Below, piece after piece: positions 6,388 to 29,728 of a DNA stretch of 34,224 nt. Positions within the stretch are counted from its first letter, which is position 1. Each line of letters starts with the position of its first letter. The position numbers and the translations under genes were made by a program. This DNA is from Chloroflexota bacterium (GTDB taxonomy: Bacteria > Chloroflexota > Dehalococcoidia > Lucifugimonadales > UBA1127): the NCBI GenBank assembly GCA_026713825.1, contig JAPONS010000075.1, forward strand, positions 1-34,224, in the 5' to 3' direction. The notes beneath the pieces are model-generated. The model ran no database searches. It was given only the letters and a program-made list of their open reading frames with translations, and was not told the DNA's origin.

Positions 6388-6609
6388 AATCCGCGATCAA
6401 TTCCGTAGCTGCACCGTTCGTCCGGGGGCCTGCAGCGGTATTCGTAACCAGGGTGAGTGCGGTTTCCATGGAGTGAGGGTAGCGAGGGGCGGAGCGCAGG
6501 GGCAAGGGGGCTGTGTCAGGGTGTGGGCAAAACCCGCGCCCACCCCGCCGTTGGCCCCGAGCCCGTCCAAGGGCGCCCTGTTCCCCGAAAAACCGGCATG
6601 TCCGCCCCA

Positions 6610-6655
6610 TTGACACACCCTGCGCGGGTCCTTATGGTATAGAACAACTATTCTA
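6610..6655 (+). promoter_or_regulatory. promoter and palindromic operator of R-M operon
   Basis: TTGACA (6610-6615) is followed after 17 nt by TATGGT (6633-6638), a good sigma-70-type promoter. The inverted repeat TAGAA-N6-TTCTA (6640-6655) covers the expected start of transcription, where a repressor would block initiation. Its core GAAC-N4-ATTC is close to the GAAC-N4-GTTC box of Gram-positive-type LexA. No controller (C) protein gene is seen, so the regulator would be encoded elsewhere. Confidence 0.65.
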
Positions 6656-6701
6656 GGAATGAGTAGGCGCAGAGAGGGTGCCTATCGACGCGGGGGTTTA
6701 G

Positions 6702-7523
6702 ATGTCACACGCTACGCTTCTCTTGGGAGACTCCCGGACGGAATTGAAGGCCCTTGATTCAGATTCCGTCGATCTTGTTTTCACTTCGCCCCCCTATGCC
6801 AACCAGCGAGCCTCTACATATGGCGGCATCAAGCCTCAAGAGTACGTAGAGTGGTTGCTGCCTATAGTGGACGAGTTGTATCGCGTCCTCAAGCCCACCG
6901 GCACCTTTGTCCTCAACATCAAGGAACCGGCCATAGACGGCGAGCGGCATACGTGTGTGCTTGAGCTCATACTCGCAATGCGTTACCGCGGGTGGCTGTG
7001 GACAGAGGAGTTTATCTGGCACAAGAAGAATTGCTACCCGGGCAAATGGCCCAATCGCTTTCGGGATGCGTGGGAGAGGCTTCTGCAGTTCAACAAGCAC
7101 CGCCAGTTCAAAATGAACCAAGAAGCTGTCATGGTGCCAGTTGGGGACTGGTACGAGGACCGCATGCGGAATCTCAGTGAGACCGATCGCGTGCGAGACG
7201 AGTCAAAGGTTGGAAGTGGCTTTGGCAAGAAGGTGGAGAACTGGTTGGGCCGCGACAAGGTCTATCCCACGAACGTACTCCACGGCGCAACCGAGTGTGG
7301 CAATCGCAATCACAGCGCGGTGTTCCCCTCCTGGCTGCCTGAGTGGTTTATTGATTTGTTCACCGATCCCGGTGATGTTGTCTTGGACCCATTCGCCGGT
7401 TCCGGCACTACGTTGCTCGCGTCGCTTGACAAAGGACGTGATGCAATTGGCGTTGAGATATATGAGCCTTACTACCGTAAGCTACAGGAAGAATTGGGGC
7501 ATCAAGTGAGATTGGCCCTATGA
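6702..7523 (+). CDS. DNA methyltransferase, beta-class, probably N4-cytosine
   Basis: The 273-aa S-adenosylmethionine-dependent DNA methyltransferase of a type II restriction-modification system. The catalytic motif IV TSPPY (28-32) is N-terminal and the AdoMet-binding motif I DPFAGSGTT (229-237) is C-terminal, the beta-class order. SPPY is more usual in N4-cytosine enzymes, while N6-adenine enzymes mostly have DPPY, so m4C is favoured but not proven. The central target-recognition part (about 110-215) is distinct, so the recognition sequence cannot be read. The ATG follows a GGGGG SD. Its last bases overlap the endonuclease start (ATGA at 7520). Base composition is visibly less GC-rich than flanking genes, consistent with transfer. 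Confidence 0.9.
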   Translation: MSHATLLLGDSRTELKALDSDSVDLVFTSPPYANQRASTYGGIKPQEYVEWLLPIVDELYRVLKPTGTFVLNIKEPAIDGERHTCVLELILAMRYRGWLWTEEFIWHKKNCYPGKWPNRFRDAWERLLQFNKHRQFKMNQEAVMVPVGDWYEDRMRNLSETDRVRDESKVGSGFGKKVENWLGRDKVYPTNVLHGATECGNRNHSAVFPSWLPEWFIDLFTDPGDVVLDPFAGSGTTLLASLDKGRDAIGVEIYEPYYRKLQEELGHQVRLAL

Positions 7524-8287
7524 ATGCCATCACGGATGAACAAGTCACAGCATACGTAGAAGCCAACATCGGGCAGTTCCACGATTCACGTATTGAGAAA
7601 CTCACGGAACTCAGGCTCCCTAAGCTCCTGAGCAGGAAGAATCCCTATCTGTTCAAGAGCAAGAACATCATTGTAGCTTCAGACCTAGTGCAATCTCTAT
7701 TGAGTGCGCATCTCAGTTCGCAAGAAGAGACCTTGTTCGGTGCTTTCTTGGAGGGTTTGGCAGTTTACGTTGCGGAAACGGTACACAGTGGTATGAAATC
7801 AGGTGTGAAAGGGATAGACCTTGAATTCACCAAAGATGGCGCAAGGTACATCATCTCTATCAAATCTGGACCCAATTGGGGGAATAAGTCACAGATAGAC
7901 CAGATGAAGGCCAACTTCAAGACAGCAGCCCAAGTCATCCGTCAAGGCAATCGAGCAGCCAATGTCATCGCGGTTAACGGCTGTTGCTACGGTCGAGACA
8001 ATACACCTGATAAAGGAGAATACTTCAAACTCTGCGGTCAAGAGTTCTGGGAGTTTATCACCGGTGCCTCTGATTTCTACACACGCATTATTGAACCTTT
8101 GGGGCATGAGGCCCACCGACGTGACCAAGACTTCCAAGCGAAGTACGCAGCAGTCGCAAATACCTTCACGGCTCAGTTTACCAAAGACTTTTGTAACAAG
8201 GATGGCACCATAGACTGGCCCAAGTTGGTAGCCTTCAATTCCTCGAAGCAGCATCCACCACGGCCAAGGCGCCGCAGAACCTCTTGA
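7520..8287 (+). CDS. type II restriction endonuclease, PmeII-like
   Basis: The 255-aa protein is translationally coupled to the methyltransferase by an ATGA overlap, which alone argues for the cognate endonuclease. Segments such as KNPYLFKSKNI (40-50), SSQEETLFGAFLE (66-78), GIDLEF (98-103), YIISIKSGPNWGNKSQ (110-125) and NGCCYGRDN resemble, from memory, the PmeII family of restriction enzymes. The likely active site pairs Asp100 with Lys115. The residue two before the Lys is Ser113, not the usual Glu or Asp of PD-(D/E)XK, so the motif is non-canonical; Glu70 or Glu102 may supply the missing carboxylate. The C-terminus ends in a basic, proline-rich tail. Low GC and separation from housekeeping genes suggest horizontal acquisition. 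Confidence 0.8.
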   Translation: MNAITDEQVTAYVEANIGQFHDSRIEKLTELRLPKLLSRKNPYLFKSKNIIVASDLVQSLLSAHLSSQEETLFGAFLEGLAVYVAETVHSGMKSGVKGIDLEFTKDGARYIISIKSGPNWGNKSQIDQMKANFKTAAQVIRQGNRAANVIAVNGCCYGRDNTPDKGEYFKLCGQEFWEFITGASDFYTRIIEPLGHEAHRRDQDFQAKYAAVANTFTAQFTKDFCNKDGTIDWPKLVAFNSSKQHPPRPRRRRTS

Positions 8288-8310
8288 CACCTCTGTCGTG
8301 GTCCGCAAGG

Positions 8311-8333
8311 TCCTGGTCCACTTTTGACCAGGA
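8311..8333 (+). promoter_or_regulatory. hairpin covering the ribosome binding site of the 94-aa ORF
   Basis: TCCTGGTC (8311-8318) and GACCAGGA (8326-8333) form a perfect 8-bp stem with a 7-nt loop. The right arm includes the first three bases of the SD GGAGG (8331-8335). When folded it would hide the SD of the gene starting at 8342. TTGACA at 8284-8289 could be a -35 element, but no good -10 follows. Confidence 0.55.
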
Positions 8334-8341
8334 GGCCCCTC

Positions 8342-8626
8342 ATGTCCCTCGGCATCGGCGTCTTCCGAATTCAGTACTTGGACATCCCCTCCCCCCTCGC
8401 CTACGACTTCGCCTGGCACATGGCGCAGGACTGGGACGCCGGCGAGTGGGCCCGCGGCGAGGGCCAGGCGTACCTCTACTTCGAGCGGCGTCGCCTCCGC
8501 TGGCTGCTGCGGGATTTCTGCAGGGAGCGCAAGGTGTCCTTCAAGGAAGAGGCCGCTGTCTGGACATGGCTGGATTCTCTGCCGTGGACGGATGAGGACA
8601 CGCTGGAGCTGCACTTCAGCTGGTAG
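8342..8626 (+). CDS. hypothetical protein, 94 aa
   Basis: I do not recognise this protein. It is rich in aromatic residues and Arg (WARGEG, YLYFERRRLRWLLRDF, WTWLDSLPW), has no membrane segment or signal peptide, and is probably a compact cytosolic domain. The ATG at 8342 is supported by GGAGG at 8331-8335, 6 nt upstream; a TTG 18 nt earlier has no such support. GC content returns to the genome norm here, unlike the restriction-modification genes just upstream. It precedes the HigA-type gene by 57 nt in the position where a HigB toxin would usually lie, but it shows no RelE/HigB features I can see. Confidence 0.6.
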   Translation: MSLGIGVFRIQYLDIPSPLAYDFAWHMAQDWDAGEWARGEGQAYLYFERRRLRWLLRDFCRERKVSFKEEAAVWTWLDSLPWTDEDTLELHFSW

Positions 8627-8683
8627 CCCGGAGCCTCCAGACGGCATACAATGGACAACTGCCTACCACTAAGGAGACGAGTC

Positions 8684-8983
8684 ATGCCCATGCACGATCC
8701 TCCGCACCCCGGCGAGACCGTAAAAGTATTGTGCCTGGAGCCTCTCGGCCTCTCGGTGACACGGGCGGCAAAGGGACTCGGCGTGACGCGACAGGCGCTG
8801 TCGGACTTGGTGAACGGCAGAGCACGGGTGTCGGTGGACATGGCGCTGCGGCTTTCGAAGGCATTTGGGTCGACGCCGGAGCTATGGTTGGGGTTGCAGC
8901 GGGCGTACGATCTGTGGCACGCGCGGGAGCGAGCGGAGGCGATGGTGGTGGAGCGGTTTGAGGAGCCGTCGGTGACGGTGTAG
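8684..8983 (+). CDS. higA: HigA-family addiction-module antitoxin, XRE helix-turn-helix
   Basis: The 99-aa protein matches HigA-type antitoxins. The N-terminal HPGETVKV is followed by LSVTRAAKGLGVTRQALSDLVNGRARVSVDMALRLSKAFGSTPELWLGLQRAYDLW, in which a helix-turn-helix (about 25-45) binds the operator and the LWLxLQxxYDL stretch is the family C-terminal mark. The ATG at 8684 has AAGGAGA upstream; an in-frame start at 8651 lacks an SD. TACAAT at 8646-8651 is a possible -10. No HigB toxin gene is adjacent on either side. It may be a solitary regulator, a remnant, or the partner of the unrecognised 94-aa protein. Confidence 0.85.
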   Translation: MPMHDPPHPGETVKVLCLEPLGLSVTRAAKGLGVTRQALSDLVNGRARVSVDMALRLSKAFGSTPELWLGLQRAYDLWHARERAEAMVVERFEEPSVTV

Positions 8984-9128
8984 GGCCGCGTCTCTCCTTC
9001 CTTTGCTCCCAACCAGGGTGAAGTCGCACCCCAATTTCCAAATTCGTTCCACTCGCACCCTTGCGGCCCGCTCCGCTCGCTGCTATCATCCCCCTTGCCT
9101 TCACTTCCATATCTGCTGCAATCTGTAA

Positions 9129-12035: not shown

Positions 12036-13337
12036 TTACCGCTCCACGCCCCGGCCGCGAGTCACTTCCGACATGAGGTTGGAGAAGAACTCCTTGTTGT
12101 TCTTCGACTTGCGCAGCCAGTCAAGCACCCGCTCCGTAGCGTCCGTGGAGTCCATGTTGGACGTCTGCGCGGAGAGTGAGATCATCCGGCGCAGAAGCAT
12201 GACCTGCTTGAACGTCTCCTCGGTCAGCAGGAGCTCGTCGCGGCGGGTGCCGCTGCGGTGGATGTCGATGGCCGGGAAAACGCGACGTTCGGCGAGCCGG
12301 CGTTCCAGGTGGATCTCGCTGTTGCCGGTGCCCTTGAACTCCTCGTAGATGACCTCGTCCATGCGGCTGCCGGTGTCCACGAGGCACGTCGCGACGATGG
12401 TGAGGCTGCCGCCCTCCTCCGTGTTCCGCGCGGCGCCGAAGAAGCGCTTGGGCGGGTAGAGCGCGCTGGTGTCGATGCCGCCGGAGAGCGTGCGGCCCGT
12501 CGAGGGGAGCGCCAGGTTGTAGGCGCGCACCAGCCGCGTCAGGCTGTCCAGCAGCACCACCACGTGCTTGCCGCTCTCGACCAGCCGCTTGGCCCGCTCC
12601 AGTGAGACCTCCGCCGTACGGCAGTGGTCCTCCACCGGCTCGTCGAAGGTGGAGGAGTAGACCTCGCCCTTGATGGAGCGTCGCAGGTCGGTGACCTCCT
12701 CCGGCCGCTCGCCCGCCAGGACGATCATCAGGTACACGTCCGGCGCATTGGCCAGCACGCCGTTGGCGATGTCCTTCAGCAGGAACGTCTTGCCTGCCTT
12801 GGGCGGTGACACGATGAGCGCTCGTTGACCCTTGCCAAGCGGCGAAACGAGGTCAATGAGCCTCTGCGACAGATTGTCCTGTTTCGATTCCAGAACAAGT
12901 TGTTCCGTGGGGTACATGGGCGTCAGGTTGTCGAAATGCGCCCGCGTGCGGGTCAGCTCCGGGTCGGCTCCGTTGACGGCCTCGACGCGGATGAGGCCGA
13001 AGTAGCGCTCCCCCTCCTTGGGCGGGCGCACCTGCCCGGTCACCTGGTCGCCGGTGCGAAGCCCGAAGCGGCGTATCTGGGACTGCGAGATGTAGACGTC
13101 GCCGGGTCCGGCGCGCAGGCCCTGCTGGCGCAGGAACCCGTAGCCGTCGCCGATGATCTCGAGCAGGCCCGTGGCGAGCACGTAGCCCTGGCGCTTGGCG
13201 AACGCCTCCAGCAGGTGGAAGACGATCTCCTCCCGCCGCTGGGCGCCGTTCTCCACGCCCATCTCATGGGCCAATTCGACCAGTTCTTCCTTGGTCTTGG
13301 CCTCCAACTGTGCCATGGTAACTGCGGTCTCTTGCAT
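12036..13337 (-). CDS. rho: transcription termination factor Rho
   Basis: The 433-aa hexameric RNA helicase terminates transcription at untranslated C-rich RNA. It has an N-terminal Rho-N helical domain ([17 protein letters not shown]), the cold-shock-like RNA-binding domain with GDGYGFLR and GDVYIS, and the RecA-like motor with Walker A PPKAGKT near residue 180. It also has Walker [12 protein letters not shown], the Q-loop LSGGID and the arginine-finger region RRDELLL. There is no large insert between the N-terminal and RNA-binding domains. AAGGAG sits about 5 nt before the ATG. It lies 94 nt downstream of pyrG on the same strand. Confidence 0.97.
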
Positions 13338-13431
13338 GTCTCTCCTTGGACGTTGTCCTTGCGTTCGGCCCCGCTCTGTGATTATGTCCTGATTTTTGGC
13401 GGGACCCGCTCTTGTTCAGCTTTCTCTCGTT

Positions 13432-15087
13432 CTATCTGTTTACCGATCCACCGACGCCGTCCAGCGGCAGCGGTGGCTGCATGCCTTCCCGAGTGATGTG
13501 CTGCGCTACGGCGACAAACTCGCGGAACAGCGGGTGCGGCCGGTTGGGCCTCGAACGAAACTCCGGGTGGAACTGCGTCCCAACCATGAACGGGTGGTCC
13601 GACGCCTCGGCGATCTCCACCAGCCGCCCGTCCGGCGAGAGGCCGCTGAAGCGCAGCCCCGCGTCCTCCAGCCGCTCGCGGTAGTCGTTGTTGAGCTCGA
13701 AGCGGTGGCGGTGCCGTTCGTCCACCACATCCTCCGCGTACGCCTGCGCCGCGATGGTCCCGGGCTCCATGTGGCAGGGGTAGATCCCCAGCCGCATCGT
13801 GCCGCCCATCTCCGTGATGTCCCGTTGTTCCGGCATCAGGTCGATGACCGGGTACTGCGTTTCTGTATCGAACTCCGTCGAGTTGGCCCCTTGCATGCCG
13901 GCGCAGCTCCTCGATCGCTCGACGACCATCAACTGCATCCCGAGGCAGAGCCCCAGGTATGGCACCTGGTGCTCGCGGGCGTAGCGGACGGCCTCCACCA
14001 TGCCGTCGACGCCGCGCGGCCCGAACCCGCCCGGCACCACGATGCCGCAGGCGTCATGCAGGAAAGTGTGCGCGCCCTCCTGCTCGACGTCCTCGGACGG
14101 CACCCAGATGACCTCCACGTCGCGGTGGTGGAACAGGCCCGCGTGCTGCAGCGCCTCCTTGACGGAGATGTAGGCTTCCGGGAGGTTGGCGTACTTGCCC
14201 ACCACGGCGACCTTAAGCGGCGTCTTGGGCTCTTTGATGCGCCCGACGATCTCCTCCCAGTCGCGCAGGTCCGGCGTCAGGTTGCCGAGCCCCAGTCTAT
14301 CTGCGAGGAGGCCCGACAGGCCCGCCTCCTGCAGCACCAGCGGCACCTCGTAAATGGTGTCGACCGTCTGCAGGGGGATCACGGCGTTCGGCTTCACGTC
14401 GCAGAAGAGCGCGATCTTGTCCTTGATGCCCTCCGGCACGGGGAAGTCGCTGCGGCAGATGATGCAATCGGGCTGAATGCCGATGCTGCGAAGCTCCTTC
14501 ACGCTGTGCTGCGTCGGCTTGGTCTTCAGCTCGCCCGTCGAGGAGATATGGGGGAGCAGGGTGACGTGGATGTAGTAGACGTTGTCGCGGCCCACGTCGT
14601 TCGGCATCTGCCGGATGGCCTCCAGGAACGGCAGGCCCTCGATGTCGCCGACTGTGCCGCCGACCTCGACGACCACGACGTCGGGGTCGGACTCCTCGGC
14701 GAGGCGCATCATCTGCTTTTTTATGACGTTGGTAACGTGCGGCACCGTCTGAATGGTGCCTCCCAGGTAATCGCCGGCCCGCTCGTTGGCGATGACGCCG
14801 CTGTACACTTGCCCGGCGGTCACGCTGGAGGAGCTGGTCAGCTCCAGGTCGATGAACCGCTCATAATGACCCAGATCCATGTCTGTTTCGGAGCCGTCGC
14901 GCGTGACGAAGACCTCGCCGTGCTGGTAGGGGGACATGGTTCCGGGGTCGACGTTAAGGTAGGGGTCGAGCTTTTGAACGGAGACGGAGAGACCGGCGCT
15001 TTTGAGGATTCGCGCAATTGATGCGACGCTGATGCCCTTCCCGACGGAACTCACCACGCCGCCAGTCACAAATATATATTTCGTCAT
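13432..15087 (-). CDS. pyrG: CTP synthase
   Basis: CTP synthase aminates UTP to CTP using glutamine and ATP. The 551-aa protein starts with the amidoligase motif [13 protein letters not shown] and [23 protein letters not shown] and SPFL-equivalent regions follow. The C-terminal class I glutaminase has [10 protein letters not shown] with the nucleophilic Cys and a HPEF motif with the catalytic His. GANSTEFD and the family-typical HRHRFELN are present. No good SD is seen just before the ATG. A G/C-rich hairpin about 85-110 nt upstream could affect expression. It is divergent from the SWIM gene and likely co-transcribed with rho. Confidence 0.97.
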
Positions 15088-15413
15088 ACGGGGCAGCCGC
15101 TTTCTCCCGGCTTGTGAATGGTGAACGACAACGGAAGCTTAGCAGGCGCTACGTGGAAACCAGTGGGCTGCGGGTGGGGAAGCCGTCGTCCCCAACCCAG
15201 GGGACCCTTGGCTGATACGCACTTACTCGTACCGGAAGCAACAGTACGTGCAGTTACATGGTTTGTCAAGTGCCTTGCCACGGAATGCGAATTGCGTTTC
15301 GCGTCACTTCCGCGGCCCGCACACAATTCCTTAAACCCGCCTGATTTCTCGTTGACCTGCACCAACCCCTTCACTAGAATACCCCCCTGAGCAATCTGCA
15401 CGCAGGAGGGACC
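15088..15413. other. 326-bp divergent intergenic region between pyrG and SWIM gene
   Basis: There is no credible gene here. The region contains an imperfect hairpin on the pyrG side (GGGTGGGGA at 15172-15180 with TCCCCAACCC at 15189-15198, one-nt bulge) and a strong promoter for the SWIM gene on the right. The middle (15200-15340) shows nothing recognisable. Confidence 0.6.
15352..15380 (+). promoter_or_regulatory. sigma-70-type promoter of SWIM gene
   Basis: TTGACC (15352-15357) and TAGAAT (15375-15380) are spaced by exactly 17 nt. This is the best promoter match in the window. The expected start, near 15387, leaves a short leader of about 27 nt with a clear GGAGGG SD before the ATG at 15414. 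Confidence 0.75.
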
Positions 15414-15659
15414 ATGAACTCCGGACTGATTGGCAAGATTGAGAAAGCCAAGCGGTACGCCCAGGACCCGGGGCGGCTCACACTCCTGAAGTTCACGGTC
15501 CACTTTCATGGAGACCATTCAGACCATACCGTCACGTACGAAGGCGGCTCCTGGCACTGCGAGTGCTCGTTCTTCTCCACCCACAACACCTGCAGCCACA
15601 CAATGGCCATCGACGCGCAGCTGGGCGGCATGATTCCGGCGGAGTTCTCCGCCAGGTAG
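15414..15659 (+). CDS. stand-alone SWIM zinc-finger protein
   Basis: The 81-aa protein carries a SWIM zinc finger of form CxCx8CxH (Cys49, Cys51, Cys60, His62) near its C-terminus. An N-terminal basic helix (KIEKAKRYAQ) and two beta strands (LKFTVHFHGD, HTVTYEGGSW) come first. SWIM domains bind DNA or proteins and occur in transposases and chromatin ATPases, but free-standing ones of this size are uncharacterised. It is monocistronic with its own strong promoter, which suggests appreciable expression. Confidence 0.85.
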   Translation: MNSGLIGKIEKAKRYAQDPGRLTLLKFTVHFHGDHSDHTVTYEGGSWHCECSFFSTHNTCSHTMAIDAQLGGMIPAEFSAR

Positions 15660-15709
15660 GGGAGCGTGTTCCCGTCCTTTGCCTTCGGTGGCGCATATCA
15701 GTTACTGAC

Positions 15710-16519
15710 CTAGCCCTGATGTTGCGTGTCAGTCAAGTGGTTGCGGATGAGTTGTATCAATGCCCACAACCACTGGGTGACTTCATCAATCTGTGACTCT
15801 GTCAGTTCGTATTGTGTGTGGACAGCAAGCTCATTGTATTTTCCTGATTGGACAAACAAACCACTGTCTTGGGCTTGTTTCCTCAGGGACTCAATCTCTT
15901 CTGACGGAACATCTGGCTTGTCTCTCAACGCGGCGAGGTAGGTATATAACCGACCATAGTAGGAAGTTGAAGCATAACCGTAGCAGACCCAATATCGTTT
16001 CCCTCCAGAGACAACGTAGAGGGAGAAGCTCTTGGCGGCCCAAGTCGTGAGCATTCCTTCATATTTGCCAAGGTCAAGCACCCGCTCATAAAAAATTCTG
16101 GCGCTTCCGGTGAATGTGTCTAGAAACTCCTCCCGACTGATTCGTGCCTGACGTTTCTTGAATTCCTCTGCTGCAGCGCTGTCTTCTGGGGAGGCTGCGA
16201 CAAGCAGCTTGCCCACGCGCGGTGTTACGTCTCGGCCAGACAGAACCAGAAGTAGGGCCTCAGCCTGCTCAGGTTCAATTTGGAAGAACTCCCTAGATTC
16301 GTTGGCCCTGTACGGATGAAAGGCCCGGTGGAGAGCGCTTTCTACAGTTGCGGCCTCAGTGCTCTCAATCTCCTTGGCGATGACGCACTCAAATGGAAAC
16401 GGAACGCCGGTAGTAAAGAGTTCGTTCATCCTCCGCTGGACGTCATCGCGGTCGGTCATGCCGATCTTTACGAGACCTGGCATTGCGGGGTTGGTAAGGA
16501 CATAGACTATGTTCGGCAT
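15710..16519 (-). CDS. GIY-YIG (T5orf172-type) protein with unknown C-terminal domain
   Basis: This is a 269-aa protein. Residues 4-80 form a GIY-YIG domain of the T5orf172/MUG113 type: VYVLTNP is the first strand (GIY equivalent), VKIGMT the second (YIG equivalent), Arg30 in RRMNEL and Glu60 in VESALH are the likely catalytic residues, and REFFQI closes the domain. Residues about 120-269 form a second domain I cannot name; it is rich in aromatic residues (SFSLYVVSGGKRYWVCYGY) and helical at the end. ATG at 16519 is chosen because AGGG lies 8 nt upstream and the domain starts there; an earlier in-frame ATG adds 9 unsupported residues. The AT-richer composition suggests transfer. Confidence 0.8.
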   Translation of the reverse strand: MPNIVYVLTNPAMPGLVKIGMTDRDDVQRRMNELFTTGVPFPFECVIAKEIESTEAATVESALHRAFHPYRANESREFFQIEPEQAEALLLVLSGRDVTPRVGKLLVAASPEDSAAAEEFKKRQARISREEFLDTFTGSARIFYERVLDLGKYEGMLTTWAAKSFSLYVVSGGKRYWVCYGYASTSYYGRLYTYLAALRDKPDVPSEEIESLRKQAQDSGLFVQSGKYNELAVHTQYELTESQIDEVTQWLWALIQLIRNHLTDTQHQG

Positions 16520-16569
16520 CTTTGATTCCCTGAGACTTCCGTACACTTTCCCGTTGGACTATGCGCTCC

Positions 16570-17817
16570 CTACTCCTGAAACCGGCGGATGACCAGGCAG
16601 GCGTTCTGGCCGCCGAAGCCGAAGCTGTTGGACAGCACTGTCTGTACGTCCGCGCTCCGCGCCACGTTTGGAACGTAGTCCAGGTCGCAGGCCGGGTCCG
16701 GGTCTTCGTAGTTGATCGTCGGGTGGATGGTGCCCGTCTCGATGGACTTCACCGCCGCGACGGCCTCCACCGCGCCCGCCGCACCCAGCGCGTGCCCGAT
16801 CATCGACTTGGTCGAGCTGATGGGAACCTTGTACGCCGCGTCGCCGAACACCTGCTTGATCGCCAGCGTCTCCACCGCGTCGTTCAGCGGCGTCGAGGTG
16901 CCGTGCGCGTTGATGTAGTCGATCTCCTCCGGCATGATGCCCGCATCGGCGAGGGCCCACCGCATTGCGCGGGCGGCGCCGTCGCCGTTGTCGTCCGGGT
17001 GCACCGGGTGGAAGGCGTCGGACGATACCCCGTAGCCTACCACCTCGCCGAGGATGTTGGCCCCGCGCCCCAGCGCGTGCTCCATCTCCTCCAGCACGAG
17101 CGACGCCGCTCCTTCGCCGGGCACGAAGCCGTCGCGGTTCGCCTCGAAGGGGCGGCTGGCCCTCGCCGGGTCCTCGTTGCTGGATGAGAGCGCCTTGATG
17201 ACGCTGAACCCGCCAAGCGCAAGCTCGCAGATGCCTGCCTCTGTGCCTCCGCTGACGACGACCTTTGCCGCGCCCCTGCGGATGACCTCGGCGGCCTCGC
17301 CGATGGCCTGCGTGCCCGCGGCGCACGCGGTGATGACGGTGTTGGTGTAGCCCCTGAGTCCCAGAATGCGGCTGACCTGGGCCGCGGCCATGTTGGGCAG
17401 GATCATCGGGATGAAGAAGGGAGATTCTTTCATCCCGCCGCGTTCAAACAGCACCTTGGCCTGCTCCTGGGTGACAGGCATGCCCCCGTTGCCGTTGCCA
17501 AGAAGCACTCCGGCCGCGTCTGGGTCCATGTTCGACCCGTTCAGCCCGGACTGCTCCATCGCCCGCACCGCAGAGGCCACGGCCATCTGCGAAAACCGCG
17601 CCATCCGCCGCGCCTCGCGGCCGTCGATGTAGCTTGCCGGGTCAAAGCTCGTGACCTCGCCCGCGATGCGGCACGGGAACCCCGTGGGGTCGGCCATGGT
17701 CATCGGCCCGATGCCTGACCGGCCCTGCACCAGCGCGTCCCAGTACTCATCCACAGTCTCGCCAAGCGGACTCATGATGCCCATGCCCGTTATGACAACA
17801 CGCTTTCGCTCTGCCAC
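16570..17817 (-). CDS. fabF: beta-ketoacyl-ACP synthase II
   Basis: KAS II condenses malonyl-ACP with acyl-ACP in fatty-acid elongation. The 415-aa protein has the full Cys-His-His set: Cys165 in TACAAGTQ, a His in INAHGTSTPLND and a His in KSMIGHALGAAGAVE. The N-terminal VVITGMGIMSPLG and C-terminal NSFGFGGQNACLV are typical. The start is GTG at 17817 with GAGG 7 nt upstream, inside the end of folC. The stop of folC is 3 nt away, so the two are co-transcribed. No acyl carrier protein gene is adjacent. A short upstream fabF-like specificity could also be secondary metabolism, but the sequence looks housekeeping. Confidence 0.93.
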   Translation of the reverse strand: MAERKRVVITGMGIMSPLGETVDEYWDALVQGRSGIGPMTMADPTGFPCRIAGEVTSFDPASYIDGREARRMARFSQMAVASAVRAMEQSGLNGSNMDPDAAGVLLGNGNGGMPVTQEQAKVLFERGGMKESPFFIPMILPNMAAAQVSRILGLRGYTNTVITACAAGTQAIGEAAEVIRRGAAKVVVSGGTEAGICELALGGFSVIKALSSSNEDPARASRPFEANRDGFVPGEGAASLVLEEMEHALGRGANILGEVVGYGVSSDAFHPVHPDDNGDGAARAMRWALADAGIMPEEIDYINAHGTSTPLNDAVETLAIKQVFGDAAYKVPISSTKSMIGHALGAAGAVEAVAAVKSIETGTIHPTINYEDPDPACDLDYVPNVARSADVQTVLSNSFGFGGQNACLVIRRFQE

Positions 17818-22156: not shown

Positions 22157-22555
22157 CTACCAGAATCCAAAGGGGTCTTGGTCCCTGCGCTTCTTGGCGA
22201 CTTTCGCCTTCTTCGTTGCCACGGTCTTCGCTACAGCCTCAAACTTGGAAAGCGGAATCGCTTTAACCGGTGGTAGTGTGCTAGGAAGGACGTCCTTAAA
22301 CTTCTTACGGAACTGCGCATCAGTTTGGGCACCCTTCCGCGTATTGCACGGAGCGCACAATAATTGCATGTTGCTCGGCTTTTCTTGTCCACCTTGAGAG
22401 TGAGGCTTCTTGTGGTCAACGTGGCCATCCCCCAACCGAAGCTTGTGTCCGCAGTACATGCACTTGCCCCCTTGCAGGGCATGAAGTGGTTTGTGCCAGT
22501 CCTTAAGGGAAGTACGCTTGCGCACACCGTCTCTGAACCAGTCATCCATGAACAT
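22157..22555 (-). CDS. HNH endonuclease-like protein
   Basis: This is a 132-aa protein. An HNH domain spans about residues 30-75: zinc-binding pairs Cys32/Cys35 (CMYCGHKL) and Cys67/Cys70 (CAPCNTRKG) bracket HVDHKKP with the catalytic His48, and NMQLLC leads into the second pair. The C-terminal third is Lys/Arg-rich (TKKAKVAKKRRD), probably non-specific nucleic-acid binding. SD GGAG is 8 nt before ATG 22555. It is embedded between a small membrane protein and mdh, with composition less GC-rich than mdh, suggesting a recent guest in an older operon. It could be a homing-type or phage-derived nuclease; its target is unknown. Confidence 0.88.
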   Translation of the reverse strand: MFMDDWFRDGVRKRTSLKDWHKPLHALQGGKCMYCGHKLRLGDGHVDHKKPHSQGGQEKPSNMQLLCAPCNTRKGAQTDAQFRKKFKDVLPSTLPPVKAIPLSKFEAVAKTVATKKAKVAKKRRDQDPFGFW

Positions 22556-29131: not shown

Positions 29132-29728
29132 ATGGGGATAGCACTCATAGTGCTGTTTGGGCTTTTGTTCATGGCAGGAATTGTCTCCGCGCTTGCCATC
29201 TGCCTTGTGTGCGCAGCAGTCGCACTTTACAGGAGGCAGGCAGTGTGGACATTTGCAATTGCCGGGGCCCTGTTTGGCGCATTCATTTTCCCTTGGCCTT
29301 ATGTGCTCGCGAGGCTGTACGGGCGCTTGCTGCCTTACCCGATTATGGGGTTGATTTACCTCTTCGCATATGGCCTTTGGCTAATTGCGATACTGTCTGT
29401 CGTCACGAGCATCGCCTGGATATGGGAGTACACGCTTGGTACCTCTACAGGGTACGTCGCTTCGGGAGCCAGCATTGGCTCCGCTTCCTTCATGACCCTT
29501 TTGTATGGTGGTGGAATTGCTGTTTGTGGCTTTGCAATGTTCATGTCTGCAAAAGGTCTGTACAAGAGGTACCGCCTGGACAGACGCGATCCATTAGGCA
29601 CCCAAATTGACAGCGCGTACGTGACGCCCTTCTTCTATGCCTACCTATGGCTTGCCGCTGCGCTTGCCGTAGCGTTTGTAAACGCCCACTACATGGTGTC
29701 TATTGGCGTCGATATTCAGGGATTCTAG
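29132..29728 (+). CDS. hypothetical multi-pass membrane protein
   Basis: The 198-aa protein has about five to six hydrophobic helices (roughly 3-33, 38-60, 68-95, 112-137 and 165-185). A basic loop RYRLDRRDP (about 146-154) separates the last two. No family is recognised. The base composition is clearly less GC-rich than uvrC next door, consistent with acquisition. AAGGGGA precedes the ATG at 29132. It stands alone between two hairpin- or promoter-bearing gaps. Confidence 0.6.
   Translation: MGIALIVLFGLLFMAGIVSALAICLVCAAVALYRRQAVWTFAIAGALFGAFIFPWPYVLARLYGRLLPYPIMGLIYLFAYGLWLIAILSVVTSIAWIWEYTLGTSTGYVASGASIGSASFMTLLYGGGIAVCGFAMFMSAKGLYKRYRLDRRDPLGTQIDSAYVTPFFYAYLWLAAALAVAFVNAHYMVSIGVDIQGF

Follow-up and report, generated by a model that had tools for sequence, protein, structure and literature searches.

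Within the 34,224-nucleotide stretch of Chloroflexota DNA analysed here (the window) lies a gene whose 269-aa product joins an N-terminal GIY-YIG nuclease domain to a C-terminal domain, here called X, that matches no library model and that in other genomes follows a second, unrelated nuclease fold. The protein is best read, with a little more confidence than doubt, as a solitary, horizontally moved, restriction-type defence nuclease in which X would be an exchangeable specificity module taking the place that RAMA has in its sister proteins. The features on which this reading draws are as follows.

15710..16519, minus strand: coding sequence, GIY-YIG (T5orf172) nuclease domain plus C-terminal X domain, 269 aa
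16253..16510, minus strand: T5orf172 / GIY-YIG nuclease domain, residues 4-89 (Pfam)
16145..16252, minus strand: connecting region (residues 90-125), where the PDC-S57 model stays in register until about residue 128
15713..16144, minus strand: X domain, residues 126-269, predicted alpha/beta fold, homologues fused to NucS-like nucleases
16527..16531, minus strand: AGGGA, resembling a ribosome-binding site, 7 nt 5' of the ATG (read from the sequence)
15414..15659, plus strand: flanking 81-aa ORF, kept in three congeners, its end being the exact start of the insertion
16570..17817, minus strand: flanking gene, FabF-like by eye, its stop codon bordering the insertion

The frame at 15710-16519 is intact from ATG to stop, with a GTG nine codons upstream as a possible alternative start. 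Residues 4-89 match Pfam T5orf172 (PF10544; E 8.4e-18, 65.2 bits against a cut-off of 20) and residues 17-90 match Pfam MUG113 (E 4.8e-15), so that an earlier note on this DNA, which ended the T5orf172 domain near residue 80, was about right. The PADLOC model PDC-S57 reaches further, over residues 2-128 (E 2.7e-43), and PD-Lambda-1 gives a partial and weaker match to residues 6-99 (E 5.3e-14). In all 11 aligned GIY-YIG rows, the window protein included, Y6, K18-I19-G20, R30, E60, H64 and E77-F78-F79 are invariant; catalytic roles in GIY-YIG enzymes are given to an arginine and a glutamate in the available text of PMC8263062, and to a tyrosine in that of PMC11037411.

Past this half the libraries fall silent. 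Scanned alone, residues 126-269 have no Pfam match at E<=10; the whole protein finds no NCBIfam family at E<=1, its PHROG matches all end by residue 95, and nothing from NCBIfam, PHROG or PADLOC matches beyond residue 130. The view that the nuclease domain is joined to an unrecognised C-terminal domain, and not to a common known one, therefore holds. PDB sequence searches found no relative, the matches to gp41 constructs (E 0.026) and some weak unrelated ones being judged chance. That the C-terminal 144 residues are not chance coding follows from a protein of the same order but another family (L010), which aligns with the window protein over its full length at 53% identity, and from the conservation of X in ten proteins (alignment A4).

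Searched with a profile of two tails, those of the window protein and L010 (A1), 2 of 250 genomes of the order and, at E<=1e-15, 8 of 400 genomes of the phylum carry X, the window's own counted each time; at E<=0.1 the phylum figure is 18 of 400, those beyond the eight being weak. The profile of the ten A4 sequences, from which the weak or partial L026, L027, L028 and L037 were left out, was run on the class of one X-bearing genome (X in 5 of 41 genomes) and on the order of another (X in 2 of 82, one of the two weak), and all seven were already among the matches from the 400 phylum genomes. The sole match among 349 genomes of one other phylum (9.7e-4, inside a 1097-aa frame) is marginal and was not counted. 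Plasmids and phages gave no X with either of two X queries, and viral contigs no match to the window protein; three viral contigs matched by another X query share with it just a common 24-residue piece (L040 was read), judged chance. Neither was X found in six genomes holding GIY-YIG homologues, a search run without a positive control. As far as these samples reach, X appears to be rare and firmly present in one phylum only. In the open-licence literature searched there was no mention of the X family, its two nuclease partners or its block replacement, nor of experimental activity, DNA binding or phage resistance of an X protein; a nuclease with an exchangeable DNA-reading tail is a known kind.

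Among the ten A4 proteins X follows a GIY-YIG domain in three (window, L010, L019) and a NucS-like half in six, and in one (L025) it stands alone without a nuclease. The X domains of the three GIY-YIG proteins fall on one side of a supported branch of the X tree (97/98), and their GIY-YIG domains form one clade (92/93) in a tree whose RAMA labels were assigned by eye to 11 rows; since each tree groups the trio, one transfer of X between nuclease types would suffice. Within the trio the tail is conserved at 33-44% and residues 1-100 at 60-69%. The genes of X proteins mostly lie among genes that do not look defence-like by eye. Adjoining the X-bearing GIY-YIG gene of L019 is an HNH frame (L083:6852-7250). 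Longer models of HNH restriction enzymes match it with their final third to half, PADLOC HNH at 5.8e-49 and a named type II restriction enzyme at 3.5e-30.

The N-terminal half of the six NucS-X proteins matches NucS_C at weak-to-moderate levels (E 1.9e-6 to 4.9e-4), exceeding the curated cut-off in four of them, while D62, E76 and K78 are invariant in all nine NucS-like rows aligned, six of which are X proteins. PADLOC PDC-S11 matches the nuclease half only, in each of the three scanned (L036, L020, L022). The PDC-S11/NucS_C-like nucleases share X with the window protein in six cases, and differ from it in a catalytic fold that is PD-(D/E)XK instead of GIY-YIG; X, DUF4268 and one weak EVE are the tails seen on them. 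Plasmid relatives of this half were sampled as 10 fetched among 30 listed of 357 matching records, and six of those ten, all with other tails, lie beside restriction or DNA-methylase genes. Pfam places DUF4268 after the NucS-like half in L172 and L173, and the record annotation does so in L174; the gene lies within a type I operon in L172 and between hsdS and hsdR genes in L173 and L174. L166, L167 and L169 adjoin a restriction endonuclease, a DNA methyltransferase and an hsdR-type gene, respectively, and L165, L168, L170 and L171 have no annotated restriction-modification gene adjoining. The EVE label used for some NucS tails has as its sole basis a sub-threshold Pfam match in L168 (0.014), and a PDB search with five tails of that kind found nothing. 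In L056, L058 and L068 the half that precedes a DUF5655 domain is PD-(D/E)XK-like, a call made by eye alone; by profile comparison the NucS-like half was not found in 29 RAMA proteins, nor significantly in DUF5655 proteins. In one genome (L087; G373 contig C6) there are two NucS-X copies, the second fragmented with an internal stop, and they adjoin a CRISPR-like array of 20 repeats.

The GIY-YIG group has an alternative to X. Ten of the 14 other GIY-YIG loci extracted carry a shorter tail of one kind, on which Pfam names no domain in the five proteins scanned. In a single profile comparison, the profile of these ten tails (L004, L006, L015 and L016, with the tail absent or cut, were omitted) matched a set of 29 RAMA domains with a probability of 97.7% and E 1.5e-12; the set comprises 29 of 30 loci, L141 having a stop. 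The two RAMA-type relatives scanned cover the best PDC-S57 model almost throughout (5-207 and 4-208 of 212), whereas in all three X proteins the match ends at residues 124-128 and the model is unmatched beyond position 129 of 212. What the window protein has in common with PDC-S57, a PADLOC candidate made up of GIY-YIG and a RAMA-like tail, is accordingly the nuclease half and connecting region, residues 2-128, and the difference is X in place of that tail. The PDC names denote phage defence candidates, most of the core set of which await experimental validation according to the available text of PMC11514479 and PMC12988326; the name PDC-S57 was not met in the open-licence literature. Two-domain GIY-YIG-RAMA fusions are suggested methylation readers in the part of PMC11037411 available, which also says that an attempt to confirm a 6mA preference failed for one RAMA protein. 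In both nuclease groups, then, it is the tail that varies, and the alternative to X among the GIY-YIG proteins is suspected to be a DNA reader. A second GIY-YIG protein of the window genome, this one of the RAMA-like type, is encoded on a different contig (L002; L160:7766-8719, G000 contig C41), directly after a HicB-like antitoxin frame (PF15919, 1.9e-8).

The most direct sign that X can be exchanged comes from two NucS-X orthologues, L022 and L024, in collinear loci of two genomes of one genus. Their residues 1-200 are identical at 190 of 200 positions (dS 0.095, dN 0.028), and from residue 205 to the end, which is X, at 87 of 139 (dS 1.31, dN 0.24). Read in 100-base steps, identity is 0.65-0.80 over X and some 85 bases past the stop, a stretch that is partly non-coding, against 0.77-0.98 downstream and 0.78-0.99 upstream including the nuclease half. 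Selection on the protein would not by itself be expected to raise synonymous divergence so abruptly; the jump indicates exchange with a diverged allele, so that X in this pair was probably replaced by recombination, in the manner of target-recognition domains. This one pair, the only clear case, is NucS-X and stands outside the GIY-YIG-X branch. A second congeneric pair follows the same trend on one side (0.68-0.78 in X, 0.80-1.00 beyond it) and is weaker as evidence, its partner L025 being without the nuclease half. At a locus shared by two congeners, one has NucS-X (L088:2770-3810) and the other a stand-alone X (L089:6068-6487); as the upstream leader is shared, the nuclease half appears to have been lost in the latter with the X frame still open.

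The window gene is itself an insertion. It is the only gene in the 910 bp (15660..16569, GC 0.52) that separate two convergent genes, counted from one stop codon to the other. In all three readable congeners (G002, G003, G004) the flanking genes meet without it, with 16 bp between their stop codons in G002; the contig of a fourth congener ends too early for the site to be read. The gene has a GC of 0.52 and a GC3 of 0.57, compared with 0.60-0.68 and 0.83-0.90 in five other window genes. Composition, from which the earlier note had already suspected transfer, and the empty site in congeners together support horizontal movement of the gene. No inverted or direct repeat of at least 9 bases frames the insertion. 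A 7-base inverted match, GGGAGCG / CGCTCCC, seen by eye at its exact ends (15660-15666 and 16564-16570), may mark the termini of a mobile unit, come from a split terminator hairpin or be a coincidence.

The immediate neighbours are genes common to the congeners, and no methyltransferase gene is adjacent; in this the window nuclease resembles type IV (modification-dependent) enzymes. Among the window genes scanned, the nearest methylase is 8 kb away. It belongs to a restriction system about 7 kb off: at 6702-8287 on the plus strand a DNA methylase (PF01555, 149 bits) and an EcoO109I-type enzyme (PF14511, 282 bits) occupy overlapping frames. About 6522-9080 has no match in the closest congener, which has some 690 other bases instead, and the system may have been either gained in the window genome or lost in that congener. 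An unnamed 103-aa frame comes after the methylase/EcoO109I-type pair. Elsewhere in the window a 132-aa HNH endonuclease lies in a GC dip (22157-22555, minus strand; best PADLOC match PtuB, 3.5e-10), and a 198-aa frame of low GC (29132-29728, plus strand) is without a match in Pfam (E<=0.01) or PADLOC.

A clean insertion of one gene into a convergent gap between conserved genes, with empty alleles in three of three readable congeners, is also what a free-standing homing endonuclease would leave: a selfish gene whose C-terminal domain recognises its own insertion site, the empty alleles being cut and converted. The general view of phage T5orf172 proteins is that they are homing endonucleases whose DNA-binding parts are modular (PMC10448857, PMC8263062). 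In L082 (6005-12855), from another family of the order, the gene for GIY-YIG with X is 2.7 kb from a rho-like and 4.3 kb from a pyrG-like gene; the same pair, named by eye, is also near the window gene (12036-16519), on the other side and at another site, and the shared closeness may be chance or a local hot spot. However, the three genes of this type occupy three different sites, a weak objection since the site can vary within one family of homing genes. Homing requires that domain and site match, yet in L022/L024 X was replaced while the gene kept its place; no DNA-binding domain of those named for phage homing genes is matched by Pfam in the window protein, and close relatives have the RAMA-like tail and are matched by PADLOC defence candidates. 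We hold homing, the foremost rival of the defence-nuclease reading, to be unlikely.

What X might do has been approached through its predicted fold. Modelled alone from ten sequences, X gives a mean pLDDT of 91.6 and a pTM of 0.87; an earlier full-length model (mean pLDDT 62.8, two sequences) was of insufficient quality in the nuclease part, and the fold search made with it has been superseded. The order is helix, helix, four strands, helices, two strands and a long helix, a mixed alpha/beta arrangement that does not bear out the earlier description of the C-terminus as rich in helical segments. The best fold matches are YdhG (2oc6; Z 9.2, 114 residues, 3.5 A), a Listeria YdhG-like protein titled frataxin (9t2w; Z 9.2) and DR2400 of DUF419 (Z 9.1, 112 residues, 3.4 A), Z values only slightly above the background of 7-8 stated by the tool. 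Next come PSPTO_3016 (Z 7.8 and 7.7), NB7804A (2kl4, its title without a family; 7.5), E. coli YjbR (7.4) and the C-terminal domain of T4 MotA (7.3, 7.1 and 6.9). Nine of the top ten rows are YdhG, YjbR-type or MotA, at Z 6.9-9.2, and unrelated folds (PcyA, aminotransferases) begin at Z 6.7. Foldseek places the MotA C-terminal domain first (E 0.029), DR2400 second (0.037) and YdhG lower (0.17), with none below 0.001 and with aminotransferases (0.065-0.12) between the YjbR-type match and YdhG; BFVD gave nothing below 1e-3.

Sequence does not follow where the fold leads. By profile comparison, X has no kinship with 30 YjbR domains (MmcQ/YjbR, PF04237; probability 1.1%), with 26 DUF5655 domains (1.9% over 40 columns; 26 of 30 loci, without L051, L057, L070 and L073, the first two of which were left out for odd flanks), or with DUF4268 and the tails of L165-L168, L170 and L171; against RAMA the probability is 0.1%, and the RAMA-like tail is likewise without kinship to X. 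The positive controls worked, YjbR against DUF5655 giving 5.3e-10 and the RAMA-like tail against RAMA the 1.5e-12 already quoted. Pfam has no match at E<=1 on X of ten relatives, YjbR, DUF1801/YdhG and DUF5655 included. The likeness of the predicted model to YdhG/YjbR proteins and to the T4 MotA DNA-binding domain comes without detectable sequence kinship, and DNA binding by X is a reasonable guess, no more.

Two observations point against X as a DNA reader: it is acidic in nine of its ten members (pI 5.6 in the window protein), so that plain DNA binding is not favoured, and a protein titled frataxin (9t2w) is in its fold class. The acidity, the capacity of X to stand alone in L025 and the block replacement, which is also expected in a protein arms race, would suit a partner domain that senses a phage protein or infection signal and frees an otherwise idle, little-specific nuclease in abortive infection. 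Against this stand the resemblance of the predicted X fold to the MotA DNA-binding domain and the replacement of X in sister GIY-YIG proteins by a RAMA-like domain, a proposed reader of modified DNA in the available text of PMC11037411; a sensing role seems to us quite improbable. That X is instead a metal-handling or small-molecule domain of frataxin/YdhG type, regulating the nuclease or a mere structural appendage, is very improbable, for although its best Z matches are YdhG-type (2oc6 and 9t2w), it has no sequence kinship with that class on the Pfam scan of the ten relatives, and its fusion to nucleases of two folds and its replacement alone better fit a role in specificity.

Under the favoured reading as a restriction-type defence nuclease, the N-terminal GIY-YIG domain would cut DNA near a site bound by X, and X, putatively double-wing-like in the YjbR/MotA manner, would bind incoming DNA and pick the cleavage target, as RAMA is thought to do. 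X would be a specificity cassette shared by two unrelated nuclease folds, and its block replacement would alter the target with the blade unchanged. The nuclease would have no protecting methylase of its own, and its target must then be something absent from the host, either a modified base or a rare sequence; with RAMA in the sister proteins, modified DNA is the foremost candidate. We infer in this way, for the window protein, nuclease activity, DNA binding by X, the kind of target and phage defence, and likewise the reading of modified bases by X. The second nuclease fold, the RAMA-like tail in sister proteins and the block replacement lend indirect support to a targeting role of X, which the earlier note had raised along with that of a partner domain. 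A bolder version, in which X is the first of a new class of modified-base readers with a YjbR/MotA double-wing fold, a cassette for at least two nuclease folds that re-aims a single-gene defence at new phage DNA modifications, is put forward tentatively and is more to be doubted than believed.

There are instructive parallels, each taken here from the available part of the source. In the 6mA-dependent type IV enzymes of PMC11037411, wH-GIY-YIG and PD-(D/E)XK-wH, winged-helix 6mA readers are carried by several nuclease folds, GIY-YIG and PD-(D/E)XK among them; there too one reader serves unrelated nucleases and methyltransferase genes rarely adjoin. They differ in that the best folds for X are YdhG, YjbR and MotA with no winged helix listed, an absence that is no proof, and in that the nuclease domain comes first in X proteins. 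A fusion of GIY-YIG, MmcQ/YjbR and EVE, reported as one example in PMC7641849, likewise joins GIY-YIG to a YjbR-like fold, but its domains are Pfam YjbR and EVE whereas X has neither a Pfam match nor YjbR kinship. The chimeric T5orf172 nuclease Odn / Gp88 of phage ICP1 (PMC8263062) acquired its target together with a DNA-binding domain of foreign origin; the domain in Odn is N-terminal, of RepA_N type and phage-encoded, in contrast to a C-terminal X in a gene among conserved chromosomal genes.

If the reading as a defence nuclease with an exchangeable reader is right, a new specificity module would join the few known readers of solitary restriction enzymes (winged helix, EVE, RAMA and others). 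L022 and L024 would be a natural before-and-after pair in which little but the reader has changed, making its role directly testable. PDC-S57 and PDC-S11, two defence candidates of unrelated catalytic fold, would then be partly explained by one theme, a fixed blade with an exchangeable tail.
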